Below, in pieces: positions 42,749 through 53,500 of a stretch of DNA of 64,000 nucleotides. A program made the position numbers and the translations under genes. The stretch spans positions 248,001 to 312,000 of the forward strand of contig JAJPIM010000045.1 in the NCBI GenBank assembly GCA_021324775.1. Reading direction: 5' to 3'. Each line of letters starts with the position of its first letter. Positions within the stretch are counted from its first letter, which is position 1. The notes below the pieces were generated by a model. The model saw nothing but the letters and a program-made list of their open reading frames with translations. It was not told where the DNA came from and did no database searches. The DNA is from Gemmatimonadota bacterium (GTDB lineage Bacteria; Gemmatimonadota; Gemmatimonadetes; Gemmatimonadales; Gemmatimonadaceae).

Positions 42749-43396
42749 ATGAATGATTCAATGCAGTGTGCCGGGGGCACTCTGGGAAGCCACCGGCATG
42801 TTTGCGCGTTCTTCAATAGCATCGACGAGGAGCACCGGGTGCTGAGTTCGTTCGTGAAGGATGGCCTCGACCGGGGCGAAAAGGCGACCCACGTGGTGGA
42901 TCCAGCGAAACGGCAAGAGCACCTGAAACGGCTCGCGGAAGCGGGTATCGATGTGCAGCAGGCCTTGGCCGCTGGCCGGCTGGAGGTGCTGCCGTGGTCC
43001 GATGCATACGTTCGCGACCACCAGTTCGACCAGAACGCCATGCTGGCCGAAGTCGAACAACTGATCCAGTCGGGGGCAGCGGCGGGCTACGCGCTCACGA
43101 GACTGGTGGGACATCATATGGATTGGGCACTGCACGATGAATCAGGCGTGAACAACCTGGTCGAATACGAGGCTCGCCTCAACTATGTTCTTGCCAAGTA
43201 CAAAGATCCCGTCATCTGCACGTACGATCTGTCCAAATTTGGCGCAACGGTGCTCCTGGACATCTTGCGGACGCACCCAGTCGTGATCATCGGCGGCATT
43301 CTTCAGGAGAACCCGTTCTTCAGTCCTCCGGATCAGTTTCTCCGTGAGTTGCGTGAGCGACGCTCGGCTCTCAAGGGGGCGGGCATGGCGCACTAA
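42749..43396 (+). CDS. MEDS-domain sensory protein
   Basis: A 215-residue protein of the MEDS type (the sensory domain first described in methanogens, methylotrophs and the dichloromethane regulator DcmR). HVCAFFNSIDEEHRVLSSFV, then GLDRGEKATHVVDPAKRQEHLKRL, DAYVRDHQFDQNAMLAEVEQ, and VICTYDLSKFGATVLLDILRTHP with the conserved Cys-Tyr/D motif. MEDS domains probably sense small hydrocarbon-type ligands. Its stop (TAA) directly touches the ATG of kinase 2, so the two proteins are likely partners: a sensor split from the kinase. Confidence 0.88.
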   Translation: MNDSMQCAGGTLGSHRHVCAFFNSIDEEHRVLSSFVKDGLDRGEKATHVVDPAKRQEHLKRLAEAGIDVQQALAAGRLEVLPWSDAYVRDHQFDQNAMLAEVEQLIQSGAAAGYALTRLVGHHMDWALHDESGVNNLVEYEARLNYVLAKYKDPVICTYDLSKFGATVLLDILRTHPVVIIGGILQENPFFSPPDQFLRELRERRSALKGAGMAH

Positions 43397-44497
43397 ATGT
43401 CCACGGAATCGAATACTGATAGTGTCACGCTGCGAGGCGCGCTCCGCGAGCTGGTGGCACTTTCAACAATCCCCGCAGCGTGGGTGGGAAGAGAACCGCC
43501 GACAATTGCCGCCGGGCTCGCTGATGTGCTGGTCGGATCGCTGCAGCTTGATTTCGCCTTCGTGCGGTTGTGCGACCCCAAAGGTGGCAATGCAATTGAG
43601 GTAATGCGGGGGTACACGTGGAAAGAATTCCCCGAATGGCTACAAAACCACCCTGGCTTTGCCGGCCGGTTCTCGTGTAAGGCGATCAGTCCTGATCTTG
43701 GCGCCCTGGAGGCGTGCACGGGCGTTGTCATTCCCATTGGCGTCAATGCCGAGGGCGGCCTGGTCGCCGGGGCGTGTAATCGGACCGCATTTCCCAGCGA
43801 GATTGAACAGTTACTCTTTTCCGTGGCTGCCAATCATGCCGCGGCCGCGTTTCAGAACGCACGCCTCGCTGAGTGGGTGAAGACTGCGGCCGTTGCCGAG
43901 GAGCGCAACCGGCTGGCCCGTGACATCCATGACACGCTGGCACAGGCGCTCGCACTGATCGTGATGCAACTGCAACACGCCGAGTCCAAGCTTGGGCCGG
44001 CATGGGCGTCGGCCCGCGAGCCGCTGGAAACCGTGCGGCAACTGGCGGTCGAGGGGCTCGTTCAAGCGAGACGGTCGGTCGGGATGTTGCGCCCTCCGAC
44101 GACACCGCACGGCCTTTCCCGCGCGGTGCAGGAAGCCGCCGATCTCGTGCGACGCTATTACGGTGGCTGCCTCGACGTGCGCGTGACGGGTGTGCCACAC
44201 GCGCTCGAACGATCGGTGGAGGAGGAGTTGCTCGCGATCGTGCGAGAGGCGTTGACGAACGCGGCCACGCACAGCCGAGGCATGCGTATCGAAGTCGAGC
44301 TAGCCTACCTCGATCGGGGCTCCGTGCGCCTCGCCGTGAGCGACGACGGACAGGGTTTCGATCCGGATCAGCCCCGTGACGGCCGCTACGGCTTGGTCGG
44401 CATGTACGAACGGGCCAACCGGATCGGCGCGGCGTTGACGCTGGTCACGGAGCCTGGCGCCGGGACCGAAATCGTGGTGGTGTGGCCGAATGAGTGA
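43397..44497 (+). CDS. soluble histidine kinase 2 (GAF, NarX-type transmitter)
   Basis: A 366-residue kinase with no membrane segment. Residues 10-160 form one GAF-like domain (LDFAFVRLCDPKGGNAIEV..., GVVIPIGVNAEGGLVAGA). From about residue 170 it is near-identical in layout to kinase 1: EERNRLARDIHDTLAQAL with phospho-acceptor His178, EALTNAATHS, DDGQGFDP, GRYGLVGMYERA. The different sensor with a conserved transmitter points to domain shuffling after duplication. Overlaps the regulator 2 start by eight bases, exactly as in pair 1. Confidence 0.93.
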   Translation: MSTESNTDSVTLRGALRELVALSTIPAAWVGREPPTIAAGLADVLVGSLQLDFAFVRLCDPKGGNAIEVMRGYTWKEFPEWLQNHPGFAGRFSCKAISPDLGALEACTGVVIPIGVNAEGGLVAGACNRTAFPSEIEQLLFSVAANHAAAAFQNARLAEWVKTAAVAEERNRLARDIHDTLAQALALIVMQLQHAESKLGPAWASAREPLETVRQLAVEGLVQARRSVGMLRPPTTPHGLSRAVQEAADLVRRYYGGCLDVRVTGVPHALERSVEEELLAIVREALTNAATHSRGMRIEVELAYLDRGSVRLAVSDDGQGFDPDQPRDGRYGLVGMYERANRIGAALTLVTEPGAGTEIVVVWPNE

Positions 44498-45125
44498 CGC
44501 GATCGGCGCGATTCGGGTGATGCTGGCTGACGACCACGCGATTGCTCGCAATGGCGTCGCGCAGATCTTGAACGGGGAGCCAGGGATCAGCGTCGTGGAG
44601 CAAGCGCGGGACGGAGTAGAAGCGGTCGAGCTCTTCGCGCGCTCCCAGCCGGACGTGGCACTGATCGATCTCCGCATGCCGAAGCTGGAAGGCGTGCAAG
44701 TGGTCGAGCGGATCCGGGGACAGTTTCCGGGCGCCGTCATCGTCATCTTGACGACGTACGATACCGACACCGATATCGAACGCGCGCTGCGCGCCGGCGC
44801 GAAGGCCTATCTCGTCAAGGACGTGTCGCCCCAAGACCTGGTCGCCTGTATCCGCGCCGTGCACGCGGGTCGCACCTGGGTGTCGCCGAGCGTCGCCGCA
44901 AAGCTGGTGGCGGGCGTGACCAACATCCGGCTCACTGCACGCGAGATGGGAGTGCTCCGGCAGCTGGCCGCCGGCAAGTCCAACAGAGAGATCGCTGACG
45001 CGCTCGGCATCAGCGACGGCACGGTCAAGATTCACATCACGCACGTGTTCAGCAAGCTTGATGTCACGAGCCGCACCGAAGCGATCACCACGGCAGTGCG
45101 ACGAGGTCTCGTCCGGATCGACTGA
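44490..45125 (+). CDS. NarL/FixJ-type response regulator 2
   Basis: A 211-residue regulator with D14-D15, D60 (VALIDLRMP) and K110 (YLVKDVSP), and a LuxR-type HTH with ISDGTVKIHITHVFSKLDVTSR. About 81 % identical (by eye) to regulator 1; the recognition helix GTVKIHxTHxF is the same but for conservative changes. Promoter C follows eight bases after its stop, matching the arrangement after regulator 1. The twin regulators may compete for or share the CGTCT-N10-AGACG sites. Confidence 0.94.
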   Translation: MSDAIGAIRVMLADDHAIARNGVAQILNGEPGISVVEQARDGVEAVELFARSQPDVALIDLRMPKLEGVQVVERIRGQFPGAVIVILTTYDTDTDIERALRAGAKAYLVKDVSPQDLVACIRAVHAGRTWVSPSVAAKLVAGVTNIRLTAREMGVLRQLAAGKSNREIADALGISDGTVKIHITHVFSKLDVTSRTEAITTAVRRGLVRID

Positions 45126-45246: not shown

Positions 45247-45669
45247 GTGCCGCTTTCATCCACTCAAGTCGTTCAGACGCTGCTCGCTAACCCGGTCGAC
45301 CTGGCGAATGTGCGAAACGTGACGAGCCCCGACGTGACCTACGTGTCGCTCAATGAAGACAACCCGGAGCTCAAGCGGTATCTGCCTTGGACCGGCACGA
45401 ACAAAGGGCCCGAAGCCATCGTCCGGGCCTTCGAAGGGATTGGGCGGGCGTGGGAGACAAAGGCGTTCCAGGTCCGCGACGTCATGGAACAGGGCGATAC
45501 GGTCGCGATGTTCGGTTCATTCACTTATCGCGGGCGCCAGTCCGGCCAGGAGATCACGTCACCGTTCTCGATCCTGGCGAAGGTCAGGGACGGAAAAGTT
45601 CACTACGTCCAGTTTCTTGAAGACACGTTCGGCACGTCCGGAACTCTCGGTCGTCCGCATGCCCAATGA
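45247..45669 (+). CDS. SnoaL-like/NTF2-fold protein 2
   Basis: A 140-residue protein from GTG 45247, 43 bases after the -10 of promoter C and preceded by GAGAGGAGAG. VVQTLLANPVDLANVRNVTSPDVTYVSLNED, LKRYLPWTGTNKGPEAIVRAFEGIGRAWE and GDTVAMFGSFTYRGRQSGQEITSPF are standard for the NTF2/SnoaL superfamily. As with the 40 kb protein it may isomerise or hydrolyse a small ring compound. The next gene (DUF4956) overlaps its end by eleven bases, so it also leads an envelope-gene operon. Confidence 0.85.
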   Translation: MPLSSTQVVQTLLANPVDLANVRNVTSPDVTYVSLNEDNPELKRYLPWTGTNKGPEAIVRAFEGIGRAWETKAFQVRDVMEQGDTVAMFGSFTYRGRQSGQEITSPFSILAKVRDGKVHYVQFLEDTFGTSGTLGRPHAQ

Positions 45670-46846
45670 ACGGCCCACTACTAACGTCGCCGGCCACTGG
45701 ATTGGTGGCGCGTGGGTCGCGTCTGACCAGCGGCGCTGGCGAGGGCTGTCGAGACAGGCGTGGCGTCTCGGTCGCGCGATCGGCCTCACCATGCTCGTGG
45801 CGCTCCCGCAGCACCGCGTCATGGCGCAAACACCGGATAGCGCGCCCAGCACCCAGTCGTTCTCCCAACTCCTTCAGGACGGGAGCACCGGGGGGCGCCG
45901 GCACGCCGCGCGCGAGGCCGTGGCCGCGCTCACCAATGGCACTGTTCGGCCCGGGATGACCGGGCTCACCTGGCGGCCGCAAGTGGCGATGGCGACGCTG
46001 ATCGCGCTCACCGGCGCGCTGCTGCTCGCCCTACCACCGCTGGTGGTCTACCGGCTGACGACTCCGAACGGCCGGTTCGACCCGTCGCTCGCCGAGAGCC
46101 TCTTCATTCTCCCCGTCGCCGTGGCGGGGATCGTCACCGTGATCCAGGGCAGCCTGGCGGTGGCGCTCAGTCTCGCGGGCGTGGTCACCACGGTGCGATT
46201 CCGGAGCGCACTCAGGGAGACCAACGACGCGGCCTACATCTTCCTCGCCGTCGCCATCGGCGTCGCGGCCGGTGCCGCCGCGCTCGACATCGGCGCGGTA
46301 CTCGCGCTCTTCTTCTGCGCCGCGATGCTGCTCTTGTGGGCCACTCGCCGGTACGTGGCGCGCAAGCACCCAGAGGCCGTGCTGCCCCCGCTGGAGCCGC
46401 ACAAACACGACAAACACGAATACGGCGAGGGGACCGCGTCCGAAGCGACCGCCCCCGGCATGTTGAGTGCGGCCGGTGAGGACCACCACGCCTTCATTGC
46501 CGTCCACGCGCCGCAGAAGGATGCAGCCCGGCGCCTCGTAGAGCCGTTGCTCGGGGACCGCACGAAGTCGTGGGTACTTCAGGACGCGGCCACCGAGTCC
46601 GACGGCTCGGCGTCACTGACGTACTCCGTCCATATGCGGAAGCACGTGAGTCCCGCAGCACTGGCTTCCGCCATTCACGAAGCGGGCGCTCATGATGGCA
46701 TCACCGCGAGCCTGGCTAACGCGAATGAGCGGCCCTCGGTCCCAACTGTTCCCGCCTCCGTCGTTCCAAGCCCCGACGGGGCGCGGGACGACGCATCGGC
46801 GACCGCGGCGCGGACAGCCGTGGCGCAGTCTGCCCCGGGACATTGA
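45659..46846 (+). CDS. DUF4956 membrane protein
   Basis: A 395-residue protein with a hydrophobic helix near residue 45, then four helices between residues 95-225 separated by short loops; VRFRSALRETNDAAYIFLAV is the DUF4956 hallmark, followed by GVAAGAAALDIGAVLALFF. A soluble C-terminal domain (about 270-395) has ferredoxin-like strands and a His-rich linker (PHKHDKHE). DUF4956 genes in other bacteria stand with VTC polyphosphate polymerases and CotH-type kinases. Here it leads to a phosphoesterase and kinase-motif OMPs. ATG 45659 was chosen; a later Met is possible. Confidence 0.8.
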   Translation: MPNERPTTNVAGHWIGGAWVASDQRRWRGLSRQAWRLGRAIGLTMLVALPQHRVMAQTPDSAPSTQSFSQLLQDGSTGGRRHAAREAVAALTNGTVRPGMTGLTWRPQVAMATLIALTGALLLALPPLVVYRLTTPNGRFDPSLAESLFILPVAVAGIVTVIQGSLAVALSLAGVVTTVRFRSALRETNDAAYIFLAVAIGVAAGAAALDIGAVLALFFCAAMLLLWATRRYVARKHPEAVLPPLEPHKHDKHEYGEGTASEATAPGMLSAAGEDHHAFIAVHAPQKDAARRLVEPLLGDRTKSWVLQDAATESDGSASLTYSVHMRKHVSPAALASAIHEAGAHDGITASLANANERPSVPTVPASVVPSPDGARDDASATAARTAVAQSAPGH

Positions 46847-46849
46847 ATC

Positions 46850-48001
46850 ATGCGTATATCGGCCGTCCGCCGACTGGTATCCGCGACGGGCATCATCGGC
46901 CTGTGCGCGGCGCCGCCCGCCGCGTTTGTTGCGCCCGCACCCGCGGGCCCGACGGCTGCCCCGCTCCCGCTCCGGCGGAGCGCCGTGAGCGACACGGACG
47001 TGACGCTCTTCCTGATCGGCGATGCCGGAGCGCCCGCGCCGGCTGGTGATCCGGTGCTGATCGCGCTCACGCGCGAGGCAAGCGCAGCTCACGCGCAACA
47101 CCGCGTCGTCGTGTTCCTGGGCGACAACATCTATCCCCGAGGCCTCCCCGACACGCTCGACCGGGGCCGTGCCCAAGCCGTGCAGCGTATCAACGCCCAG
47201 CTCCACGTCCAGGAAGCGAGCGGCGCTCGCGTGATCTTTGTGCCGGGTAATCATGACTGGGACGCTGGCCACGCCGACGGATGGGCTGCGATTCGGCGCG
47301 AAGGCGCCTACATCGATCACGCCGGCGGCGACCTGAGCCCCGGCGCTGGTGTGGCCGGTGCCTCGATGCTCCCCGCGAACGGATGCCCCGGGCCGGCGGT
47401 CGTCGACGTGGGCGCTCGCGTGCGGCTCGTGCTCCTCGACAGTGAGTGGTGGCTCGCGTCGGGGCCGAAGCCGACCGATGGCTGCCCAGCGGCCACCGCG
47501 GAGGAAGTGCTTGACCAGCTGCGGCACGACATTGCCGGCGCTGGCACTCGCCGGGTCATCGTCGGTGCGCACCATCCGGTGGTCTCCGGCGGCGTGCACG
47601 GGGAGCCGGTGCGCTGGACCGATCCCTTCCGCAGCCTGCCGTCGGCGCTCGCGCGTCGCCTGATTCGCGACGCCCAGGATTTCTCTGGGGCGAAGTATCG
47701 GGTCCTGCGCGCCGCTCTGGACAGCGTGTTCGCGTCCACTCCTCCCTTTGCCTTCGCGACCGGCCACGATCACGCCCTCCAGGTCATCAGCCGGGATCAC
47801 GCACCGCTTTTCCTCGTCTCCGGCGCTGGCACATTCCATCACCTTGACCTTGTAGAGCCGATTCGCGGGACGCGATTCGAGGCACATGAGAGCGGCTACA
47901 TGCGGCTCGATTTCGTGGGAGACACGGGGGTCCGGCTGTCAGTGCGCGTCGTCGACGCGTCCGCTACCGCGCGCGATGCATACACGCAGGAGTGGCCGTG
48001 A
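46850..48001 (+). CDS. secreted metallophosphoesterase
   Basis: A 383-residue calcineurin-like enzyme with a signal peptide (to about residue 25). The five metal motifs are present: LIGDAGA, FLGDNIYPRG, VPGNHDWDAGH, VGAHHPV and ATGHDHALQV. Members act on phosphomonoesters or nucleotides; the substrate is open. It starts three bases after the DUF4956 stop and its own stop overlaps the next start (GTGA). Its neighbours suggest a cell-envelope phosphate function. Confidence 0.9.
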   Translation: MRISAVRRLVSATGIIGLCAAPPAAFVAPAPAGPTAAPLPLRRSAVSDTDVTLFLIGDAGAPAPAGDPVLIALTREASAAHAQHRVVVFLGDNIYPRGLPDTLDRGRAQAVQRINAQLHVQEASGARVIFVPGNHDWDAGHADGWAAIRREGAYIDHAGGDLSPGAGVAGASMLPANGCPGPAVVDVGARVRLVLLDSEWWLASGPKPTDGCPAATAEEVLDQLRHDIAGAGTRRVIVGAHHPVVSGGVHGEPVRWTDPFRSLPSALARRLIRDAQDFSGAKYRVLRAALDSVFASTPPFAFATGHDHALQVISRDHAPLFLVSGAGTFHHLDLVEPIRGTRFEAHESGYMRLDFVGDTGVRLSVRVVDASATARDAYTQEWP

Positions 48002-50733
48002 GCACACACCGGCCATCGTGTCGGGCGGGATGGCTGGGTGTCATGTGGGCGATCGGCCTCGTGACAACCGTATGCGCGGGCATCCGGGTCTCCGCGCAGG
48101 CTGCGGCCGACACAACGCAGCCCGCCGATTCCCGCCCCGTGCTCAAGCCGCACAAGCTCGCCAAGCCGCGCGGACCCGCGTCAGCACCAGCGCCCGGGCG
48201 GGCCGTTCCGGCGCCCCCGCCCCCGACGGCGGCCGCGCCCGAGTCGGTCACGGTCGTACCAGGGCCGGAATACCGCGCGAGCGGCATCCGTCGGCTGTTC
48301 GGTGGCGCGCGCTATCGCGCCGTGTGGACGACACCGATCCGGGTGCGGGTCATGGACCTGGAGCGGTTCGCGGGCGGACTCACGCCCCTGTACCACGGCG
48401 GCGGGGAAGAAACGGTGTCGCTGCACATGCGAGGTGCCGATGGGATCGAGTATGTCCTGCGCTCGATCGACAAGCGCCCGTGGGTACCGGCCAATCTCCG
48501 GCAGACCATCGTCGAAGACCTCGAGCACGACGAGATCAGCTCGGCCCTCCCGACAGGAGCCCTGGTGGTCGCTCCTCTGCTGGAGGCCGCCGGAGTCCTG
48601 CACCTCGAGCCCTCACTGTTCGTGATTCCCGACGATCCGCGTCTCGGACCCTACCGGCAGGAATTCGCCGGCATGTTGGCCGAGGTCGAAGCACGGCCCC
48701 GGACCGCCGATGGGGAAGAGACATTCGCCGGAGCGTCCAAAGTGGAGGGGAGCGCCAAGCTGTTAGCCGCTATGGCCCAGTCCTCCTCCATCCGCGCCGA
48801 CAGCCGGGCGTTTCTCACGGCGCGGCTGATGGACATGTACGTGGGTGACTTCGACCGCGACACGGTCCAGTGGCGCTGGGCGCGTTTTGGCGAGAAGGGA
48901 GACCGGCGGTGGGAGCCGATTCCGCTCGACCGTGACTGGGCATTTGCGCGGTTCAACGGCGTCCTGAACGACATACTCAGCCGGGACTGGCCGCAGATCG
49001 TCGTCTTCGGCGATCACTACCCTAGTGTTGTCCGGCTCGCGTTCGAGGGATGGCGCTTCGACCGCCGCTTGCTGCAGGACCTCGAGCGGCCGGTGTTCGA
49101 CTCGACGGCGGCGTGGCTCGTTCACCAGCTCTCCGACTCGGTGATCGACGCGGCCGTGGCCCGCCTGCCCGAGGGCGAACGCGAGCGCGTCGGACCGTTT
49201 CTCGTGCGAACGCTCCGTCGCCGGCGCAACGGTCTTCCGGCACTCGCCGAACACTATTATCGGCGGATCTCCGCCAGTGCCGACGTGCACTCGACTGTCC
49301 AGCCCACGGTCGTCGACATCGACCGCCGCCGCGACACAGTGGAGATCCGCTTCCGGCTCCGCGACGCGGATCCCGCGGACCCGTACTTCGATCGCCGGTT
49401 CGTCCGCGGTGAGACGCATGAGATCCGTCTCTACCTCGATGGTGGGCCGGACAGTATCGCCGTCCGTGGCCGCGGGGATGGGGTGCTCGTTCGCGTGATC
49501 GCAGCGGGTGACGATGATGTGCTCACCGTTTCGTCGGGCGCCGGGGCAGGTCGCACCGCGATCTACGACGGGGGCCACCTCGTGCGCCTCGTGGGCGCGC
49601 ACTCTATCTCGAGAGACGACAGGAGATGGACGCCCGCTCCGGCCCCGAGCGATTCGCTTGCCCTGGGCAAGGAGAGGCTGGAGCTCGATGACGGATCGTG
49701 GTGCCACACACAACCCTGGCTCGGCGGCAGCACGGACGATGGCCTGGTCGTGGGCGGCGTCCTGACGTGCGACGCGTTTGGCTTCCGCCAGGACCCCTCG
49801 GCGCTGCATCAGACGCTTCAGATTGCGTATGGGACGTCCACCGGCGGGGGGCTCCTGTCATACCGCGCGCAACTCCACCCCACCGAAAGCCTGAACCAGT
49901 GGGCCCTCCAGGTTCGCGCTGCGACCAGCGAGTACACGCGCTACTTCGGAGTAGGCAACGAGACCCCACTCGCTGGGACCCTCGGCTTCTATGAGGCCCA
50001 CCAGCAGTACTACGAGCTTGCACCTGCATTCGTGTTCGGCATCTCGAGGCAAGCGTCCCTGGCACTCGGTCCGGACCTCCGGTATTGGGAGACGGGCCGC
50101 ATCGCAGGCACCGTCCTCGGTACGTCGCGGCCCTATGGCGTCGGTCCGTTCGGCACCATCGCGGGTCGTCTGGATTTTCGGCTCGACACGCGCGACGTCG
50201 CAACCATCGCGCGGAGCGGCATGCTCCTCGATGTGAGCGGGCGTGGCGTGCCCGACGCCTGGAACGCCACCGAGTCGTACGGGCAGCTCTCCGGCGTGCT
50301 CAAGAGGTATCTCAGTGCCACGTCGTGGCCACTCGAGCCGACGCTGGTGCTCCGCGCTGGCGGCATGAAGGTGTGGGGACTCGCACCCTATCAGGACCTG
50401 GCCCACATCGGTGCGCAGACGACGGTCGAGGATTTCAGCGTACGCGGTTACTACCCGGATCGCTTCACCGGGGACGCGTCAGCCTACGGCACGGTGCAAC
50501 TCGAGATCACGCTCGCGCATCCCAAACTGATCGTCCCGGCCGACGTGGGACTGCTCGGGTTGGATGACATCGGCCGCGTGTTCGCGCCCGGTGAGCCTTC
50601 GTCGGTCTGGCACGACGGTGCAGGCGGCGGGGTGTGGGCGGCCTGGCTCGACCGGACCTTTGCGTCGAACGTGACCGTAGCGCACGGCACCGATGGCACG
50701 CGAGTCTACTTCGGCCTCGGGACTGGGCTGTGA
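47998..50733 (+). CDS. giant outer-membrane protein with kinase-like motif 1
   Basis: A 911-residue protein from GTG 47998 (GTGA overlap; GTG 47992 is an alternative). Signal peptide, Pro/Ala-rich linker to about 85, then a soluble region with TPLYHGGGEETVSLHMRGADG, MDMYVGDFDRDTVQWRW and WEPIPLDRDWAFARFNG (about residues 270-320), a beta-rich part (400-520), and a C-terminal barrel of the BamA/surface-antigen type with PYQDLAHIGAQTTVEDF near the end and a final YFGLGTGL. The GDFDR...PIPLDRDWAF pair recalls the catalytic loop and metal-binding loop of CotH/Fam20/HipA-like kinases; I infer this only from motif order. Such OMPs fused or next to phosphoesterases are known in Bacteroidota-like bacteria. 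Confidence 0.75.
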   Translation: MSTHRPSCRAGWLGVMWAIGLVTTVCAGIRVSAQAAADTTQPADSRPVLKPHKLAKPRGPASAPAPGRAVPAPPPPTAAAPESVTVVPGPEYRASGIRRLFGGARYRAVWTTPIRVRVMDLERFAGGLTPLYHGGGEETVSLHMRGADGIEYVLRSIDKRPWVPANLRQTIVEDLEHDEISSALPTGALVVAPLLEAAGVLHLEPSLFVIPDDPRLGPYRQEFAGMLAEVEARPRTADGEETFAGASKVEGSAKLLAAMAQSSSIRADSRAFLTARLMDMYVGDFDRDTVQWRWARFGEKGDRRWEPIPLDRDWAFARFNGVLNDILSRDWPQIVVFGDHYPSVVRLAFEGWRFDRRLLQDLERPVFDSTAAWLVHQLSDSVIDAAVARLPEGERERVGPFLVRTLRRRRNGLPALAEHYYRRISASADVHSTVQPTVVDIDRRRDTVEIRFRLRDADPADPYFDRRFVRGETHEIRLYLDGGPDSIAVRGRGDGVLVRVIAAGDDDVLTVSSGAGAGRTAIYDGGHLVRLVGAHSISRDDRRWTPAPAPSDSLALGKERLELDDGSWCHTQPWLGGSTDDGLVVGGVLTCDAFGFRQDPSALHQTLQIAYGTSTGGGLLSYRAQLHPTESLNQWALQVRAATSEYTRYFGVGNETPLAGTLGFYEAHQQYYELAPAFVFGISRQASLALGPDLRYWETGRIAGTVLGTSRPYGVGPFGTIAGRLDFRLDTRDVATIARSGMLLDVSGRGVPDAWNATESYGQLSGVLKRYLSATSWPLEPTLVLRAGGMKVWGLAPYQDLAHIGAQTTVEDFSVRGYYPDRFTGDASAYGTVQLEITLAHPKLIVPADVGLLGLDDIGRVFAPGEPSSVWHDGAGGGVWAAWLDRTFASNVTVAHGTDGTRVYFGLGTGL

Positions 50734-50737
50734 CACG

Positions 50738-53500
50738 ATGAACACGATGACCGCCGGCACCGGTCTCGCCATCGTTCTCGTAGCCGTGTCGCGCCGCGGG
50801 CCATTCGCCAGCGCGTGCTGCCTGATCCTGGCGTTCGCTGCACTGCTCGCCGCGTCTCCGCTGGCCCAGTCGGCGTGCGCGCAGAACTCCGCGGCGGCCA
50901 GCGCGCCAAAACCGGCGGGCAAGGTGCCGAAGAACGCGCGACGCCCTGCGGCGATTGCGGCACCGGGACGTGTCGTGCCCGCGCCCCCGCCGCCGGGTGA
51001 TCGGCCTGAGTCAGTCTCGGTCGTACCGGGGCCTCAGTACCGGGCGACGGCGCCTCGCAAGTGGTTTGTCGGTGACCGGTATCGTGACGTGTGGACCACG
51101 CCGATTCGTGTCCCGGTGCTCGACCTCGAGCGCTATGCCGGCGGCCTCACCCCGATCTACCCCGGCGGCGGGTTGGAAACGACCTCCCTCCATATGCACG
51201 GAGCCGACGGGATCGAGTATGTGCTGCGATCCGTCGATAAGCGTCAGGTTGTACCTCAGGAGTTGCAAGGCACGATCCTGCAGGACGTGGCCCAGGACGA
51301 AACCAGTGCCGGCTTTCCGACGGGCGCGCTCGTCGTTGCGCCGTTGCTGACCGCGGCGGGCGTGCTGCACGTCGCCGGGAGTCTCGTGGTCATTCCTGAC
51401 GACCCTCGGCTTGGCGCCTACCGGGAGGAATTCGCCGGGATGCTGGCCGAGATGGAACCCCGCCCGCGGACGGCCGACGGCGAGGATGCATTTGCCGACG
51501 CGTCGAAAGTCGAGAACACAACGAAGGTACTCGAGGACGCGACCCATGCGTCAGTCCGGATCGACGCCCGCGCGTACCTCACCGCGCGGCTCATGGACAT
51601 GTACATCGGCGATTGGGATCGAGGCCCCACGCAGTGGCGCTGGGCGCGCTGGGGTTCCAAGGCCGAGCGGATCTGGGAGCCGATTCCGCTGGATCGTGAC
51701 TGGGCGTTCGCCCGCAATAACGGCATTCTGAACGCGATCCTCCGGCTCGCCGACCCGCGGCTCACGGTGTACGACCACGCGCATCCGCCGACGCGCGAAA
51801 TGCTCGGGCTCATGACTGAGGAGTGGCAACTGGACCGACGGCTGCTGCAGGAGGTCGAGCAGCCGGTGTTCGACTCGACGGCTCGGTGGCTCCAGGGCGT
51901 GCTCACCGACTCGGTGATCGGCCTGGCCGTCGCTCAGATGCCGGGCGAGGAGCAGGCCATTCGCGGCGCGTGGCTTGCGCACGCCCTCCGGCAACGACGT
52001 GCCGAGCTCCCGGAGATCGCTCGCCGCTATTACCTGCGGATGGCCGACGGTGCCGATGTCCATACCGCCACCGAGCCGACCGTCGTCGACATCGACCGCC
52101 GGCCCGACACCGTCGATATCCGCTTCCGGCTGCGCGGCGCCCAACCCGGGGATCCCTACTTCGAGCGCCGGTTCGCCCGCCGCGAGTCCAACGAGGTCCG
52201 GCTGTATTTGGACGGCGGCCCGGACAGCATCACCGTCCGCGGCGCCCACGACGACATCCTCGTGCGCGTCATCACCGCGGCTGACGGCGACGTGCTCGTG
52301 GATTCGTCGCAGTCCGGCACCGGGGGCACGAACGTCTATGACGGGTGGCATCCCCTCCGTCTGGTCGACGCGCACTCGATCGATACCGATCATCGCCGGT
52401 GGTCACCCCCGCCGAACGACTCCGGGCCCCTCAGCTTGCAGGTGCTCGTGCGGGACGACGGCTCCCAATGCCTTGCTTATCCCTGGGCCGCCGGCAACTC
52501 GGACGTAGGGCTGGCCGTTGGAGGCGTGCTCACCTGCAGCCTCTTTGGGTTCCGCCGTCTCCCGTTCGAACTCCATCAGCGGCTCATCGCCGCCTTCACC
52601 TCCGCGACGACGGGGGGACTGCTCGACTATCTCGGCCAAGTGCGGCCGACCGGGAGTGAGGACCTGTGGTCGCTGCGGATGCGAGCATCAACCGCCGACT
52701 ACACACGGTACTTCGGCATTGGTGACGCCACGCCGCTCGGCCGTCCGGAGCGGTACTTCGAGGCACACCAGCAGTACTACGAGCTCGCTCCGGCCTTCAC
52801 CCTCGCGGTCGCCCCACACGCGACGCTCACCCTGGGCCCGGACCTCCGCTACTGGGACACGGGCCGGACGACGGCGACGTATCTCGGGTTGACGGATCCC
52901 TACGGGCTCGGGGCCTTCGGCTCCGTCAGCGCCGTCGCCGATGCCGTGATCGATACGCGGGATACGCCGGCTCTCGCCACACGGGGGGTCTTGGTCAACA
53001 TTGGCGCGCGCGGGGTTCCGGGGTGGTGGACCGCGTTTCAGTCGTACGGCCAGTTGCACGGAGTGGCATCGACCTACCTCACGGCTGCGGGGCTCCCGCT
53101 TTCCCCCACCTTGGCGCTCCGCGCGGGCGGCGAGAAGATCTGGGGTACGGCACCCTATCAAGACCTGGCGCACATTGGCGCGCAGACCGTCTTCGATCCG
53201 TTCACTGTGCGGGGCTACTTCCCCGACCGCTTTGCAGGGCAGGCATCAGCATTTGGCACGGTCCAGCTCGAGGTCACGGTCGCGCATCCCAAGCTGATCG
53301 TCCCGGCGGAGTTGGGCCTCGTCGGATTCAACGACATCGGTCGCGTATTCGCGTCCGGAGATCCCGCGTCGGTGTGGCACAATGGAACCGGCGGGGGCAT
53401 CTGGACCGCGTGGCTCCAGCGGACGGTGGCAGGCAGCGCCCTCATGGTTCACGGGAGCGACGGGACACGTATCTATGTGGGAGTAGGCACGGGGTTCTGA
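50738..53500 (+). CDS. giant outer-membrane protein with kinase-like motif 2
   Basis: A 920-residue tandem paralogue of the previous gene (about 60 % identical by eye), starting five bases after its stop. Same order: signal peptide (LAFAALLAASPLAQ), Pro-rich linker, GLTPIYPGGGLETTSLHM, MDMYIGDWDRGPTQWRW, WEPIPLDRDWAFARNNG, then the barrel with the PYQDLAHIGAQTVFDPF and FNDIGRVFASGDPASVW segments and a final VGVGTGF. The central D-W-D-R loop is kept although the sequence around it differs, which supports functional importance. Confidence 0.75.
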   Translation: MNTMTAGTGLAIVLVAVSRRGPFASACCLILAFAALLAASPLAQSACAQNSAAASAPKPAGKVPKNARRPAAIAAPGRVVPAPPPPGDRPESVSVVPGPQYRATAPRKWFVGDRYRDVWTTPIRVPVLDLERYAGGLTPIYPGGGLETTSLHMHGADGIEYVLRSVDKRQVVPQELQGTILQDVAQDETSAGFPTGALVVAPLLTAAGVLHVAGSLVVIPDDPRLGAYREEFAGMLAEMEPRPRTADGEDAFADASKVENTTKVLEDATHASVRIDARAYLTARLMDMYIGDWDRGPTQWRWARWGSKAERIWEPIPLDRDWAFARNNGILNAILRLADPRLTVYDHAHPPTREMLGLMTEEWQLDRRLLQEVEQPVFDSTARWLQGVLTDSVIGLAVAQMPGEEQAIRGAWLAHALRQRRAELPEIARRYYLRMADGADVHTATEPTVVDIDRRPDTVDIRFRLRGAQPGDPYFERRFARRESNEVRLYLDGGPDSITVRGAHDDILVRVITAADGDVLVDSSQSGTGGTNVYDGWHPLRLVDAHSIDTDHRRWSPPPNDSGPLSLQVLVRDDGSQCLAYPWAAGNSDVGLAVGGVLTCSLFGFRRLPFELHQRLIAAFTSATTGGLLDYLGQVRPTGSEDLWSLRMRASTADYTRYFGIGDATPLGRPERYFEAHQQYYELAPAFTLAVAPHATLTLGPDLRYWDTGRTTATYLGLTDPYGLGAFGSVSAVADAVIDTRDTPALATRGVLVNIGARGVPGWWTAFQSYGQLHGVASTYLTAAGLPLSPTLALRAGGEKIWGTAPYQDLAHIGAQTVFDPFTVRGYFPDRFAGQASAFGTVQLEVTVAHPKLIVPAELGLVGFNDIGRVFASGDPASVWHNGTGGGIWTAWLQRTVAGSALMVHGSDGTRIYVGVGTGF

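Follow-up and report, generated by a model that had tools for sequence, protein, structure and literature searches.

The window, a stretch of 64,000 nucleotides from a member of the Gemmatimonadota, contains a tight operon of four genes at 45659–53500, all on the plus strand, whose neighbouring frames overlap or abut. The first gene (45659–46846) encodes a DUF4956 membrane protein (Pfam PF16316, E = 1.5e-12), and the second (46850–48001) a secreted, purple-acid-phosphatase-like metallophosphoesterase with an N-terminal signal-like sequence (Pfam PF00149, Metallophos, E = 9.6e-5). An earlier note on this DNA had placed a secreted phosphoesterase in one operon with two outer-membrane proteins, as is indeed the case. 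These two proteins, ORF1 (47992–50733, 913 aa) and ORF2 (50693–53500, 935 aa counted from the first ATG), are tandem paralogues with 61% identity overall, and each is made up of a signal-like sequence, a predicted kinase-like domain, a beta domain and an Omp85 barrel, an architecture that we refer to below as kinase-Omp85. The length of 910–920 residues previously given for both fits ORF1, while ORF2 is longer. A SnoaL-like gene precedes the operon and a YceI-like gene follows it.

Directly upstream and on the same strand (42749–45125), the window encodes a MEDS-domain protein, a HisKA_3 histidine kinase and a LuxR-type response regulator, which might control the operon. Promoter-like sites showed no excess over shuffled sequence and a search for tandem repeats found none, and we therefore make no claim on regulation. 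PADLOC returned no match to defence systems.

The Omp85 barrel and its linker

The C-terminal parts of both proteins are recognised by the NCBIfam model Omp85_fam (NF047779; E = 9.9e-13 for ORF1 and 9.4e-17 for ORF2, both below the cut-off), and PF01103 scored above its cut-off in four of the five relatives scanned with Pfam. The full-length model of ORF2 (residues 98–935; pLDDT 91.1, pTM 0.88) has 16 membrane-length strands, counted from the listed strands, which together with the family match and the fold matches define a barrel with a VRGY motif at 52463–53485. Foldseek paired this barrel with TamA, BamA and Sam50; with a C-terminal 16-strand barrel related to BamA and TamA, ORF1 and ORF2 belong to the Omp85 superfamily. 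Ahead of the barrel, in place of POTRA domains, the model has a linker that is all beta and about 114 residues long (52049–52390, residues 356–469 of the full-length model), and no beta-alpha-alpha-beta-beta unit was found in the full-length model of ORF2.

The N-terminal domain and its conserved motifs

In each paralogue a domain of about 365 residues lies N-terminal to the barrel. It was delimited in ORF2 (aa 98–462, 50984–52078) by AlphaFold2 and Foldseek, and in ORF1 (48214–49305) by alignment with the modelled ORF2 domain, to which it is 62% identical. No Pfam or NCBIfam model matches this domain, and single-protein searches against Pfam, NCBIfam and the PDB gave no kinase match. The earlier note had proposed structure prediction and a fold search as the test of a kinase-like core. 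The AlphaFold2 model of the ORF2 domain (pLDDT 92.9, pTM 0.92) indeed has the two-lobe fold of the protein-kinase-like superfamily, and its nearest Foldseek matches were CtkA (E = 8.1e-5), HipA (1.4e-4), CotH (5jda, 2.0e-4), PI4KII (5.7e-4) and Fam20C (1.9e-3), with HipT also among the matches and a probability of 1.00 for each of these. Protein-kinase-like entries made up most of the top 50, and TM-scores were modest (query-normalised 0.29–0.44 for the ten best matches). The earlier proposal that kinase-like and barrel domains are fused in one protein thus agrees with the models of both parts.

No sequence match to any kinase was significant taken alone. When a profile of aligned relatives was compared with the PDB, CtkA was the best match, on the segment DRHNGNW (E = 0.16–0.18). 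The best Pfam match among 96 family members was to CotH (PF08757, E = 0.0031, in member L052), with a score of 17.5 bits that lies below the gathering cut-off of 23.8; for HipA_C the best match was again in L052 and at the same loop, with an E of 0.12 and a score short of the 30.5-bit cut-off. HipA_C was also the best of six profile-profile comparisons: the hhalign score to HipA was 24.8 against 13.7 ± 2.4 for a shuffled-column null (maximum 21.9, n = 100), which is not significant by HHsuite's own probability but which we regard as meaningful because it exceeds all 100 column-shuffled versions. A small CotH set gave a weak result in such a comparison. Taken as a prediction from the model, a protein-kinase-like fold for the N-terminal domain of ORF1 and ORF2 is well supported.

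The motif pair GD(F/W)DR...QWRW and PIPLDRDWAF, already pointed out in both proteins, was located at 48844–48945 in ORF1 and at 51608–51709 in ORF2. In ORF1, the catalytic-loop-like motif GDFDRDTVQWRW, with Asp in place of His, spans 48844–48879 and the DFG-like PIPLDRDWAF spans 48916–48945. In ORF2, the corresponding motif GDWDRGPTQWRW, which includes D309 and has Gly in place of His, spans 51608–51643, and PIPLDRDWAF, with D334 and D336, spans 51680–51709. The order of the two motifs is as previously described, and their separation is 12 residues rather than about 15. In domain numbering, the ORF2 model runs from a helix (195–207) through the loop with DWDRG to a strand (218–223), a second strand (229–235) and, directly after it, DRD. 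This is the order of alpha-E, catalytic loop, beta, beta and DFG in kinases, and by topology the motifs are therefore placed at the catalytic and metal loops. The N-lobe contributes a segment (51164–51241) from a Gly-rich GGGxQT-like stretch to YVLRSVDK, modelled as beta strands.

Conservation was assessed in 96 sequences from many phyla, including both window copies (ORF2 numbering). R179 and K183 of the N-lobe segment, D302, D309, R310, W315, D334, D336 and D381 are invariant (96/96), and Q314 and W317 are each found in 95 of 96; at this level of conservation across phyla, the motifs are not a chance resemblance. D309 on the one hand and D334 and D336 on the other thus correspond to the catalytic and metal-binding Asp residues that characterise the protein-kinase-like superfamily. 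The His of the DRH motif, H311, is present in 92 of 96, the exceptions being ORF2, L011 and L022 (all Gly) and ORF1 (Asp). The D-x-H-x-x-N loop of HipA_C and CtkA is not found, as most relatives have DRHxxQ and the window copies DRGxxQ and DRDxxQ. The earlier statement that both His and Asn are replaced is consequently correct for the window; across the family Asn has given way to Gln (95/96), but the His is kept. The window copies are sisters in a quick tree (support 100); judged from these sequences, the His disappeared no earlier than the stem that they share, and independently of this in other lineages.

The phosphatase, DUF4956 and PPK1 in related loci

At least 586 matching loci were confirmed in the genome collection. 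The best 80 of these come from Gemmatimonadota, Ignavibacteriota, Chlorobiota, Bacteroidota, Rhodothermota and KSB1, and further from Calditrichota, Latescibacterota, Poribacteria, Acidobacteriota and Aminicenantes; all neighbour counts given below refer to these best 80. Within the phylum of the window the distribution is patchy, with kinase-Omp85 present in 86 of 298 sampled genomes; the sample contains two further members of the window's genus, and neither has it. Closely spaced pairs of kinase-Omp85 paralogues are likewise seen in other phyla, as at L031, L033, L038, L039 and L061, which makes duplication at the locus a recurrent event.

The product of 46850–48001 conserves the five metal-binding motif groups of purple acid phosphatases (DxG, GDxxY, GNHD, H and GHxH) as D58xG60, G91DNIY95, G133NHD136, H241 and G305HDH308, and the family profile matches human purple acid phosphatase (1war) with an E of 2.6e-11; from its sequence we assign it as a purple-acid-phosphatase-type enzyme. 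The phosphatase is fused N-terminally to kinase-Omp85 homologues in 26 of the 80 loci and encoded by a separate nearby gene in 13. Pfam assigns no name to the several hundred residues that separate Metallophos from Omp85 in fused relatives from Bacteroidota.

DUF4956, which is present in a single copy in the window's genome, lies near a kinase-Omp85 gene in 20 of the 80 loci, two of these (L076, L078) being weak matches of about 2e-4. By coordinates, the two genes are within 10 kb on one contig in 17 of the 21 genomes that hold both in the sample of the window's phylum.

PPK1 (polyphosphate kinase) is found within 8 kb of a kinase-Omp85 gene in 17 of the 80 loci, compared with an expectation of about 0.3 (one per 4 Mb, 1.12 Mb of locus DNA); the loci are not independent of one another, although several phyla are represented. 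L029, L048 and L051 share the order DUF4956, phosphatase, kinase-Omp85 and PPK1, the first three as in the window. The PPK1 gene of the window's genome is on another contig. The polyphosphate system suggested in the earlier note thus gains support from the homologues and has no linked PPK1 in the window itself, and we regard the polyphosphate link of the gene set as moderately supported.

Other neighbours were also recorded. An SdiA-regulated/phytase-like propeller (e.g. L031:11603–12577) is the commonest neighbour family, present in 31 of the 80 loci. In two loci a CYTH domain is fused N-terminally to the PPK1 beside kinase-Omp85 (L048:10460–12490 and L051:10154–13672, the latter CYTH just below the Pfam cut-off). 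HD-domain phosphohydrolases that carry a membrane domain of the PycTM type (Pycsar effector-like) stand beside kinase-Omp85 at L035:2915–4183, L101:4714–5927 and about 20 other loci, where PPK1 and a SixA-like histidine phosphatase are often encoded too.

Comparison with known systems

The best solved matches to the predicted fold are the Ser/Thr kinases CtkA, HipA and HipT (HipA_C), which also share the Gly-rich GG segment. The HipA loop DAHGKN has the same spacing as the DRHxxQ of the kinase-Omp85 family, with the metal-loop Asp about 20 residues on. In contrast to these kinases, kinase-Omp85 proteins have Gln for Asn and DRD after the loop, are exported and are fused to Omp85; unlike HipA, they have no HipB and show no significant sequence match. 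PI4K type II and Fam20C, also among the top fold matches, are eukaryotic enzymes with no sequence match. A second likeness is to the set of CotH (PF08757), DUF4956 and polyphosphate polymerase, which in Pel polysaccharide clusters occur together (PMC7112168), in line with the earlier note. The likeness lies in the fold (5jda, E = 2e-4) and in having DUF4956 and a polyphosphate enzyme as neighbours, whereas kinase-Omp85 stays below the Pfam cut-off for CotH, is a Gram-negative outer-membrane fusion, and has PPK1 with CYTH where that set has the polymerase. By profile cut-offs and by the DxHxxN loop, the sequences thus place the N-terminal domain outside both HipA_C and CotH; its mode of action, should it prove active, would nevertheless resemble theirs.

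The architecture of PF00149 with an Omp85 barrel was catalogued in 2014 as the 'Metallo' subfamily (Heinz and Lithgow, 2014; PMC4104836), and two of three fused relatives that we scanned have exactly these two domains above the Pfam cut-off. In the available portions of that paper, no kinase-like or other domain is described between PF00149 and the barrel; in the window, moreover, the phosphatase is a gene of its own. The paper terms the PF00149 domain a metalloprotease, whereas PF00149 is a metallophosphoesterase family and is here purple-acid-phosphatase-like. Accessory subunits of the F. johnsoniae BAM complex were considered and set aside, the text of that paper containing no kinase or phosphatase term. 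In the open-licence literature searched, we found no earlier description of a kinase-like domain on Omp85.

Discussion

We consider it about 60% probable that ORF1 and ORF2 are outer-membrane enzymes, or enzyme-derived receptors, that are part of an envelope phosphate-transfer module. Such a module would consist of ORF1 and ORF2, the often fused purple-acid-type phosphatase and DUF4956, with an exported kinase-like domain tethered through the beta domain to the Omp85 barrel. We infer catalysis, substrate, direction and location alike: the N-terminal domain would bind a nucleotide or another phosphoanhydride and pass phosphate to an envelope substrate, the phosphatase would reverse or recycle this transfer, and polyphosphate could plausibly serve as donor, substrate or sink. 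That the residues are invariant speaks for phosphotransfer in the family, and a phosphate reaction that is reversed or recycled would be expected to show such a fusion to a phosphatase. Given the signal-like N-termini and the Omp85 barrel, the kinase-like domain would lie in the periplasm, the default for the N-terminal domain of an Omp85 protein, or on the surface, the location put forward in the earlier note, if the protein exports itself as type Vd systems do. ATP is normally absent from the periplasm and the cell exterior, which puts the donor in question and counts against the proposed envelope kinase.

The alternative that survives best, and which we hold to be a serious possibility short of an even chance, is that of a type Vd-like autotransporter, in which the enzyme domains at the N-terminus would be brought to the surface by the barrel of the same protein, the route proposed for PlpD. 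PlpD has a POTRA domain, whereas our model has none, and sequence cannot settle topology. The order of an enzyme domain followed by a 16-strand Omp85 barrel matches the architecture in Heinz and Lithgow (PMC4104836), who discuss this route for the 'Metallo' class. Type Vd-like export is a statement about location, and is compatible with a kinase-like function.

It is more doubtful that the genes serve to degrade or salvage extracellular or periplasmic phosphorus compounds (polyphosphate, phytate or phospho-esters), with the kinase-like domain binding these and PPK1 storing phosphate in the cytoplasm. The purple-acid-type phosphatase, the phytase-like propeller and the neighbouring PPK1 and SixA-like histidine phosphatase would all suit such a role, but it leaves the invariant catalytic and metal-loop Asp of the kinase-like domain unexplained, there is no known porin or transporter partner, and the exopolysaccharide clusters in which DUF4956 occurs elsewhere link it to CotH and a polyphosphate polymerase (PMC7112168).

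The missing His bears on the window copies in particular. Since both lack it, they may be weakened or specialised, and they could be active or pseudokinases. We think it rather unlikely that they are catalytically dead kinase folds that provide the barrel with a ligand or scaffold domain: the replacement of the His by Gly or Asp in the two sister copies, and its renewed loss in L011 and L022, are what one would look for in pseudokinases, but R179, K183, D309, D334 and D336 are retained even in His-less copies, and active PI4KII has DRG at the position of DRH. With the His kept in 92 of 96 members, the whole family is unlikely to be dead. Finally, an ordinary Omp85 assembly factor with a structural plug or POTRA substitute is very improbable, for although the barrel is of the Omp85/TamA/BamA class, the N-terminal model is kinase-like with invariant catalytic-type residues and the genes are found together with those for the phosphatase, DUF4956 and PPK1.

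Returning to the envelope phosphate-transfer module, the predicted kinase-like domain beside a phosphatase gene, in a gene set found next to PPK1 in relatives, suggests an as yet undescribed phosphate-transfer chemistry in the cell envelope. A broader proposal, which we put forward as speculative and on balance would not expect to hold, is that diderms possess widespread, unrecognised outer-membrane-anchored kinases that (poly)phosphorylate envelope molecules, coupled to polyphosphate synthesis and a fused phosphatase, as a Gram-negative counterpart of the set of CotH, polyphosphate polymerase and DUF4956. If true, six or more phyla (at least 586 matches) would have kinase chemistry in their outer membranes, residing in proteins that the family libraries annotate with nothing beyond an Omp85 barrel and a metallophosphoesterase. 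This would raise the issue of the phosphate donor where ATP is scarce, would have a bearing on the unsolved function of DUF4956, and would tie exported kinase-like domains in a concrete and testable way to a secreted phosphatase and to polyphosphate.
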